Assembly (NCBI RefSeq): GCF_039645585.1
Contig: NZ_CP147915.1
Location: 1,612,001-1,676,000 of the forward strand
Reading direction: 5' to 3'
DNA length: 64,000 bases
From: Sulfurimonas sp. HSL-1656
GTDB lineage: Bacteria > Campylobacterota > Campylobacteria > Campylobacterales > Sulfurimonadaceae
Part shown: in pieces, positions 25,229 through 31,999 of the stretch
How positions within the stretch are numbered: the first letter of the stretch is position 1
How the letters are laid out: the number at the start of each line of letters is the position of its first letter
The notes under the pieces: generated by a model
The model's input: only the letters and a program-made list of their open reading frames with translations
Told to the model about the DNA's origin: nothing
Databases searched by the model: none
Translations under genes and position numbers: made by a program

Positions 25229-25301
25229 CGGGCATGTTGCCATTTTGCCCTGGAAACGCAGCTGACAGCCCTTATGCTACACAGCACTCGCAGATTTCAT
25301 G

Positions 25302-25307
25302 TATAAT
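25302..25307 (+). promoter_or_regulatory. -10 element of the leucine-attenuated leuA operon
   Basis: TATAAT within ATGTATAATGGC, 30 bases before the leader-peptide ATG. No convincing -35 hexamer is visible at 16-18 bases upstream, so an activator or a weak -35 is likely. Confidence 0.6.
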
Positions 25308-25336
25308 GGCATTCATATACAACAAAGGAGAAGACT

Positions 25337-25429
25337 ATGAACTGTAGTTTCGGCCGCTATCGGCACGCATCACCATCCCACACAGCGATGAACCGCACCC
25401 TTCTCCTACGCCTACTTCTTTCTCTATAA
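25337..25429 (+). CDS. Leucine attenuator leader peptide (LeuL-like)
   Basis: A 30-codon open frame with a strong Shine-Dalgarno (AAAGGAG, six bases before ATG). The last ten codons encode TLLLRLLLSL: seven leucines, all CTT, CTC or CTA, and none the CTG that dominates surrounding genes. Ribosomes short of charged leucyl-tRNA would stall here. It ends 29 bases before the terminator hairpin and about 100 bases before a 2-isopropylmalate synthase gene, exactly the arrangement of a leucine leader. An internal ATG (25388) would give a 13-residue version. The first half (MNCSFGRYRHASPSHTA) carries no leucine. Confidence 0.85.
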   Translation: MNCSFGRYRHASPSHTAMNRTLLLRLLLSL

Positions 25430-25458
25430 ACACCCTCTTTTATTTTTGATTTCTGTTT

Positions 25459-25500
25459 TGCCTTCCAGGGCGGCGCACGCCCGTATGTAGGCATTTTTTT
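25459..25500 (+). terminator. Attenuator terminator upstream of leuA fusion
   Basis: A two-part stem: TGCCT (25459-25463) pairs with AGGCA (25489-25493), and inside it GGGCG (25468-25472) pairs with CGCCC (25478-25482) around a five-base loop. Seven T residues follow directly. It lies between the leader peptide and the leuA start, so it would stop transcription when leucine is plentiful. I could not identify a strong alternative antiterminator by eye. Confidence 0.85.
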
Positions 25501-25525
25501 CGTTTTTATTGTCAAGGAAAATGCT

Positions 25526-27574
25526 ATGTATACCAAATACCGGCCCTACCCGGCCGTGGCCATGGAGAAAAGAGCCTGGGCGGACAAAACCGCCGACGTT
25601 GCCCCCGTGTGGGCCAGTACCGATCTGCGCGACGGCAACCAGGCACTCAAAAACCCGATGGACATCCCCCAAAAAGTTGCCTATTTCCAGGCCCTGGTCG
25701 ATTTCGGCTTCAAAGAGATCGAAATCGCCTACCCCAGCGCGTCGCAGACCGAATTCGATTTCTGCCGGACGCTGATCGAGGGAGAGATGATCCCGAAAGA
25801 CGTCACCGTCGGCGTTCTCGTGCCCGCCATCGAACGCCACATCGTGCGCAGTTTCGAAGCACTCCGCGGCGCGAAGCGGATCATCTTTCACCTGTACAAC
25901 CCGACCGCTGCGAACCAGCGTGAAGTCGTCTTCCGACGCACGGAAGAGGCGATCATCGGTCTGGCGGTACAGGGCGTAGCGTGGGTCAGTCGCGAAGCGG
26001 AGCGCTTTGGGGGCGAGGTCGTGTTCGAGTACTCGCCGGAGAGCTTTTCGCAGACCGAACTCCCCTTCGCGCTGGCGGTCTCCAACGCCGTCATCGACGC
26101 CTGGGGGCCGACGCCGCAAAGCCCGATGATTTTGAACCTGCCCAATACGCTGGAAGCCGGTTCGCCCAATATCTACGCCGACCGGATCGAGTGGATGGGG
26201 GAGCGTATCGCGCAGCGCGAGAGCGTCATTATCAGCGTCCACCCGCACAATGACCGCGGCTGCGCCGTCGCCAGCGCCGAACTGGCCGTTTTGGCGGGCG
26301 CACAGCGCGTCGAGGGTACGATGCTGGGCAACGGCGAGCGCGCCGGAAACGTTGACCTCGTTACGATGGCCTTCAACTACTACGCGCAAGGTATCGACCC
26401 GCGGTTGAACGTCGGGAAGATCGACGAAGTCCTCTCGCGGATCACGGCGATCACGGGCACCGAGGTGGCTGAGCGCCATCCCTATGTGGGCTCCATGATC
26501 TACAGCGCCTTTTCGGGCACCCACCAGGATGCGATCAAGAAAGGGATGGAACACCGCCGCGCCAGCAACACGCATGCATGGGAGGTCCCCTACCTCGCCA
26601 TCGACCCGGCCGATATCGGACGCGCCTATAAAGACGCCGTCCGCATCAACTCCCAGTCGGGCAAGGGGGGCGTCGCCTACGTCCTCAAAGAGTGCTACGG
26701 CATCGAGGTCCCCGCCTCAGAGCAGACGGCACTCGCGGATGCCGTGAAAAAGTGCTCCGAGGCGCGCGGCGGCGAGATCGGCGCCGACGAAGTGCGCGAG
26801 CTCTACGAGCAGATGGCGCAGCACGCGGAGAGCAACAGCTGGAATGCGGCGCATTATGCCCCCCATGCCGGTTTCGTCTCGGCGCTGGCGCTCCCCGTCG
26901 TGGAGCTGCTCTCGCCGAAAGCGGGCGAAACAATCCTCGACCTGGGCTGCGGCGAAGGGAGCCTCGCCGTGGAGATCCAAAAGCGCGGCGCCGACGTCGT
27001 GGCGGTCGACCTGAATGCCGACATGGTCGAATGTGCCAGGGCCAAGGGGATCGACGCCTATGTGATGAGCGCGACACTGCTCCCTTTTGAGCGGCGTTTC
27101 GACGCGGTCTTTTCCAATGCCGTACTGCACTGGGTCACGGAAGCCCGTACGGCCGTGCGGCAGGTCCACCGGGCCCTGAAACCCGGCGGCAGGTTTGTCG
27201 CCGAGTTCGGAGGGTACGGCAATGCGGCGCAGGTCGTCGAAGCGATGCGGATGGTCTTTGAACGGCACCCTGAATTCGGCCCCTTTGAAAACCCCTGGTA
27301 CTTCCCGACCGATGCCGAGTACAAGGCGCTGTTGGAATCGGAAGGGTTCAGTGTCGCCTCCGCCGAACTGATCGTGCGGCCGACACCCGTCGACGACATC
27401 GCCCACTGGCTCGACCTCTTTGCCAACGGCATCGTCGCGCACCTGGAGAGTGCACAGCTCTCCCGCTTCAAACAGGAGGTGCGGACGCTGTTGGAACCGA
27501 CACTGTACAATGCTTCGGAAGGGTGGCATGTCGATTACGTTCGGCTGAGGGTCAAGGCGCGCAGGGGAGGCTGA
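25526..27574 (+). CDS. 2-isopropylmalate synthase (type 2) fused to a SAM-dependent methyltransferase
   Basis: A 682-residue two-domain protein. Residues 1 to about 425 are the catalytic TIM barrel and linker of type-2 LeuA, which condenses acetyl-CoA with 2-ketoisovalerate: STDLRDGNQAL (30-40), EIAYPSASQTEFDF, the metal-site HPHNDRG (239-245), GTMLGNGERAGNVDL and SGKGGVAYVL. In place of the usual C-terminal leucine-binding domain, residues about 440-680 form a complete class I methyltransferase: HAGFVSAL, the SAM motif ILDLGCGEGSL (about 470), VVAVDLNADMV, FDAVFSNAVLHWV and ALKPGGRFVAEFGG, most like trans-aconitate-methyltransferase-type enzymes. The frame is continuous with even codon use. 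Feedback inhibition by leucine is probably lost; control would be by the attenuator upstream. What the methyltransferase acts on is unknown. Confidence 0.88.
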   Translation: MYTKYRPYPAVAMEKRAWADKTADVAPVWASTDLRDGNQALKNPMDIPQKVAYFQALVDFGFKEIEIAYPSASQTEFDFCRTLIEGEMIPKDVTVGVLVPAIERHIVRSFEALRGAKRIIFHLYNPTAANQREVVFRRTEEAIIGLAVQGVAWVSREAERFGGEVVFEYSPESFSQTELPFALAVSNAVIDAWGPTPQSPMILNLPNTLEAGSPNIYADRIEWMGERIAQRESVIISVHPHNDRGCAVASAELAVLAGAQRVEGTMLGNGERAGNVDLVTMAFNYYAQGIDPRLNVGKIDEVLSRITAITGTEVAERHPYVGSMIYSAFSGTHQDAIKKGMEHRRASNTHAWEVPYLAIDPADIGRAYKDAVRINSQSGKGGVAYVLKECYGIEVPASEQTALADAVKKCSEARGGEIGADEVRELYEQMAQHAESNSWNAAHYAPHAGFVSALALPVVELLSPKAGETILDLGCGEGSLAVEIQKRGADVVAVDLNADMVECARAKGIDAYVMSATLLPFERRFDAVFSNAVLHWVTEARTAVRQVHRALKPGGRFVAEFGGYGNAAQVVEAMRMVFERHPEFGPFENPWYFPTDAEYKALLESEGFSVASAELIVRPTPVDDIAHWLDLFANGIVAHLESAQLSRFKQEVRTLLEPTLYNASEGWHVDYVRLRVKARRGG

Positions 27575-30973: not shown

Positions 30974-31999
<1,026 letters not shown>

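Follow-up and report, generated by a model that had tools for sequence, protein, structure and literature searches.

The locus considered here raises the question of why a short, leucine-rich reading frame and a terminator stand in front of an accessory leuA gene in Sulfurimonas sp. HSL-1656, and of what the leucine codons do there. The window, which is the whole stretch of 64,000 nucleotides that was analysed and to which all positions refer, belongs to a genome of 2.56 Mb in one contig. An earlier note, made from the sequence alone, had listed a TATAAT box, a ribosome site, a leucine-rich 30-codon frame, a two-part stem with seven Ts and the start of leuA, and all of these elements are present in the sequence, as follows.

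25302-25307, forward strand: -10 element TATAAT of the leader promoter (extended TGTATAAT, 25300-25307), from the sequence and a consensus scan, with TGTATAATGG also in L010 and L011
25326-25333, forward strand: Shine-Dalgarno (SD) arm AGGAGAAG of the leader ORF, which is also the 5' arm of the SD:leucine-run helix, from pairing with 25400-25407 and covariation
25337-25429, forward strand: leader peptide ORF of 30 codons, MNCSFGRYRHASPSHTAMNRTLLLRLLLSL, from the sequence and ORF list, homologous leaders (L010-L016 and L245-L280) and a shuffle test
25400-25426, forward strand: leucine run CTT CTC CTA CGC CTA CTT CTT TCT CTA, from the sequence and codon counts
25400-25407, forward strand: anti-SD arm CTTCTCCT inside the leucine codons (Leu22-24: CTT CTC CTA), from pairing and covariation
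25430-25459, forward strand: spacer of 30 nt from the leader stop to the terminator, G-poor and U-rich, from the sequence and from relatives, whose 35-nt spacers are 6% G
25460-25500, forward strand: two-part intrinsic terminator, outer GCCT/AGGC and inner GGGCG/CGCCC, then A and T7, from the sequence, pairing in relatives and a covariance model
25514-25519, forward strand: ribosome-binding site AAGGAA of the leuA paralogue, not antisense to the leucine run, from the sequence and a pairing control
25526-27574, forward strand: leuA paralogue with HMGL-like and IPMS_D2 domains and a C-terminal SAM methyltransferase, LeuA_dimer absent, from the ORF and domain analysis
30974-31996, reverse strand: ilvC, from genome context

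The consensus scan places TACACA at 18 nt from the TATAAT at 25302-25307, the leader SD (core AGGAG) lies in the context AAAGGAGAAG, and 96 nt separate the leader stop from the ATG at 25526, which opens a product of 682 aa, in which the methyltransferase takes the place of the allosteric domain. The leader is no chance ORF, because an ORF of 12 to 45 codons behind an SD and with at least seven leucines in its last 12 codons arose in none of 4,000 dinucleotide-shuffled versions of the intergenic region, and because the C terminus of the peptide and the terminator are kept in relatives. With at least four leucines in the last 12 codons, an SD-preceded ORF appeared in 40 of these 4,000 shuffles.

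A comparable leader is on record in the same phylum. LeuL of Campylobacter jejuni, a 28-aa peptide with five rare leucine codons upstream of leuABCD, was reported in 2013 together with a short RNA whose end lies just behind the LeuL stop and with LeuL-like ORFs in most Epsilonproteobacteria having leucine genes (PMC3847290), and initiation of its translation was detected by TIS profiling in 2025 (PMC11955535). The view in the earlier note that no such leader had been described in Campylobacterota was therefore mistaken. The window leader resembles LeuL in being an ORF of 20 to 35 aa with a ribosome-binding site and several C-terminal leucine codons, some of them rare, directly before a leu gene, and in the attenuation that is proposed for it. 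It differs in the gene that follows, an accessory paralogue in which leuA is joined to a methyltransferase, and in the conserved intrinsic terminator ahead of that gene. Among Rfam leader RNA families, none reaches its gathering score in the window's leader region. Escherichia coli leuL (Rfam Leu_leader) is likewise a leader with a leucine codon run (four CTA) before leuA, followed by an attenuator.

With respect to relatives, the leader and the terminator precede the same paralogue in three genomes of the genus, in other genera of the family and in another family. The C terminus of the peptide and the terminator are retained in two congeners (L010, L011) and in other genera, and across L012-L016, L245-L280 and the congeners nearly every case with a locatable start follows the plan of leucine-run leader plus terminator. 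Comparison among related genomes, which had been proposed as a check on the leader, thus bears out a leucine leader and intrinsic terminator before a leuA-type gene without LeuA_dimer, with the leucine run conserved. The paralogue itself is scattered, with a match in 19 of 228 genomes of the family at the chosen cut-off and in 17 of 24 genomes of one genus of another family; a scan of genome contigs returned mainly the general LeuA family and little for the leader. Its methyltransferase part resembles trans-aconitate 2-methyltransferase or BioC, and is fused to the paralogue in some relatives and encoded by a separate adjoining gene in others. Regulator-less LeuA of the Arcobacter type (L024, L038, L042) has a different short ORF upstream, behind AGGAG and rich in Phe, Ser, Leu and Ile (for example MSINISKQFISFSFLFLLNF in L042).

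The terminator, laid out as GCCT-TCCA-GGGCG-gcgca-CGCCC-gtatgt-AGGC and followed by A and T7, places an intrinsic terminator between the leader and the structural gene. In an alignment of 18 terminators, 93.8% of cells are paired, versus 33-49% for slid-partner controls, and three pairs of the stem show compensatory changes on both sides. A covariance model finds a single match in the genome, the window site, and no second copy of the terminator. A mini-hairpin GCCU..GGGC (-4.9 kcal/mol in the first eight leaders) was considered and set aside; it lies inside the terminator and is, by inspection, weakened in further members. Downstream of the attenuator and before leuA, L012-L014 of one sister genus carry a second palindrome, TTACATGTAA, then GGAT and Ts.

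The last nine leader codons hold seven leucines (three CTT, three CTA, one CTC and no CTG). In the window's 51 long ORFs the shares of leucine codons are 0.43 for CTG, 0.38 for CTC, 0.14 for CTT and 0.01 for CTA (1.1%), and three CTA out of seven are notable for that reason; it is through CTA alone that the run uses rare codons, CTC and CTT not being rare. The genome has one tRNA-Leu gene for each of the anticodons UAG, GAG, CAG, UAA and CAA. In A+T-rich relatives the leucine run is built from CTG and CTC, both uncommon in their genes. The avoidance of CTG had been taken as the mark of a sensor of scarce leucyl-tRNAs; it is only part of the explanation, and CTT CTC CT(A) is also the exact antisense of the leader's own SD. 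The run is shaped both by rare-codon use and by complementarity to the SD. In attenuators the choice of codons is commonly put down to scarce tRNA and nothing else, whereas one run here appears to carry two signals.

In the window, AGGAGAAG and CTTCTCCT form eight Watson-Crick pairs (25326-25333 with 25400-25407), with a duplex energy of -13.2 kcal/mol, as compared with -6.6 kcal/mol for leucine codons and own SD in E. coli leuL, whose leucine codons do not show this complementarity. Taken by itself, the match in the window lacks significance, as a fraction of 0.094 of synonymous redraws do as well, and the case therefore rests on the comparative set. We sampled 133 leuA upstream regions from the order Campylobacterales, of which 106 hold a leucine leader candidate, and used 98 distinct leaders for the pairing test. 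The order is the one that includes Aliarcobacter, as a named Aliarcobacter contig shares 87% DNA identity with a locus of the same order. Permuting SDs among these leaders gives -9.72 kcal/mol versus -11.43 kcal/mol for leaders with their own SD (z -9.7), and the preference for the own SD persists among 36 leaders at less than 55% identity (z -6.4, p<=1/20001), against synonymous codon redraws (z -7.4) and when the order of synonymous codons is shuffled within each tail (z -6.5). The leader SD set against mid-leader codons serves as a control and gives z +1.3. Further SD:run pairs in the order include AGGAGAAGT:ACTTCTCCT, as well as AGGAGTGTAC:GTACACTTCT and AGGAGCGTACC:GGTATGCTCCT, each with one G-U pair.

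That the complementarity is a mere by-product of CTC-CTN codons resembling an anti-SD would explain why swapped pairs already average -9.7 kcal/mol and why the window taken alone is not significant. However, leaders pair better with their own SD than after swapping of SDs, redrawing of synonymous codons or shuffling of codons within the tail; unusual SDs are accompanied by runs that match them (AGGAGGATAGA:TCTATCCTCCT in L127, AGGATAGAAGA:TCTTCTATCCT in L124); and related leader pairs show matched changes in both arms, such that swapping their SDs costs 6-11 kcal/mol in total. We consider the by-product explanation very improbable. On these comparisons of sequence, the complementarity between leader SD and leucine codons is selected across the order. 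We found no literature report of leucine codons antisense to the leader's own SD, nor any mention of pairing between SD and leucine run in the accessible parts of the LeuL accounts (PMC3847290, PMC11955535), and it is this feature that appears to be new.

Within the order, 41 of the 106 leuA leaders (within L119-L227, for example L126, L173 and L186) carry LPKIE[IT][KR]N just before the leucine run. Conservation within the motif is 0.97 at codon positions 1 and 2 but only 0.58 at position 3; what is preserved is therefore the amino-acid sequence, as would suit a nascent-chain function. The pairing signal is weaker in this group (z -2.6), and some of its leaders pair little.

A run of leucine codons that acts as an anti-SD is known from the actinobacterial LEU element, in which the run pairs with the leuA SD and a pseudoknot is present (PMC1262725). 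A translational attenuator of this kind, with the run masking the leuA SD until a stalled ribosome unmasks it, would suit the anti-SD-like run of the window and has its model upstream of actinobacterial leuA. Yet the leuA SD shows no covariation with the run in our set (z +0.9 to +1.4), and its pairing with the run is worth about -5 kcal/mol versus about -11 kcal/mol for the leader SD; masking of the leuA SD was rejected on these grounds, and we regard the translational reading as highly unlikely. The trick would be the same as in actinobacteria but aimed at a different SD, the partner of the window run being the SD of the leader itself instead of that of leuA.

Taken together, we favour, with a probability of roughly 0.7, a LeuL-type leucine-sensing leader with a transcription attenuator before the accessory leuA, in which the leucine codons would also gate translation of the leader. 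With ample leucyl-tRNA, the first ribosome would clear the leucine run, which could then fold back onto the SD and shut off new rounds of initiation on the leader, and RNA polymerase would be halted at the terminator ahead of leuA. With scarce leucyl-tRNA, a ribosome stalled on the run would mask the anti-SD and leave the SD open, and read-through into leuA would rise; that stalled or queued ribosomes lessen termination is conjecture on our part. The two signals of the run would thus be the sensing of tRNA and the shutting of the leader's own start, a reading that has statistical backing across a bacterial order. For a group in which few leader peptides have been described, this gives amino-acid control a design that can be tested. 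Self-limited leader translation has a likeness in E. coli trpL, where leader RNA lying further downstream can mask the SD of the leader.

How a stalled ribosome would act on the terminator is the point on which classical attenuation of the trp/leu type makes a definite prediction, namely that stalling frees a segment to pair with the 5' arm of the terminator as an antiterminator. The required parts occur in the expected order, CACCCCUU behind the leader stop of L010 can pair with AGGGCGGUG, and in the window GCCUAC of the run competes for the 3' arm GUAGGC of the terminator, but neither pairing is conserved and the spacers of the sister genus have no complementary stretch. Folding had also been suggested as a check, in the expectation of an antiterminator. 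When nascent lengths and ribosome-masked states were folded in eight leaders, no conserved antiterminator emerged: with the ribosome placed on different codons, the outer helix of the terminator keeps a probability of about 0.7-0.99 in seven of the eight sequences and falls to 0.5 in one, and the terminator survives constrained folding in almost every state. Thermodynamic folding thus gives no antiterminator that depends on ribosome position, and classical attenuation seems to us rather unlikely.

The ordinary leuA leaders of the order have no intrinsic terminator, which among leuA leaders occurs only in the paralogue clade; the leader must therefore also act, or once have acted, in another way. 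In ordinary leuA operons (for example L202, L190 and L148), 46 of 90 spacers between leader and leuA contain a gnTAnaAT -10 motif versus 9.4 expected, while none was found in eight such spacers of the paralogue clade. The terminator accordingly seems, from these sequence comparisons, to have been added in this clade to a leader design of wider occurrence. In several families the -10 motif of the ordinary spacers falls within a conserved inverted repeat, on its 3' side (TCTAATT...GGTAAAATTAGA, for example), which suggests a second promoter and perhaps an operator.

If the terminator is such an addition, a stalled ribosome might instead protect the transcript or block Rho, with control exerted by decay or by Rho at the G-poor spacer. 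The 6% G of the spacers after the leader stop and the lack of an intrinsic terminator in most leaders of the order speak for this, whereas the conserved intrinsic terminator of the clade needs no Rho, and we hold such control to be unlikely. A wider form of the gating reading seems possible, and we put it forward tentatively: leaders in much of Campylobacterales may be self-gating, with roughly one round of translation per transcript unless a ribosome short of leucyl-tRNA stays on the run and keeps the start open, such that leader occupancy, and not a classical antiterminator, would be the regulatory signal.

The earlier note had further proposed that leucine control by the leader replaces the missing allosteric domain of LeuA. 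As a rule this fails, since leaders in other families front a LeuA that keeps LeuA_dimer (L154, for example), and the leader is therefore no general substitute for the domain. Within this genome the idea does fit: a full-length LeuA with LeuA_dimer is encoded elsewhere, and no leader was found before its gene, nor before leuC. The 5' UTR of this main leuA (L003, L017-L037; G000:C1 near 428450, minus strand) has a short 5'-terminal hairpin right after TATAAT, which has no match in Rfam and is found repeatedly across the family; its stem varies, and GCARGAG is often present in its loop.
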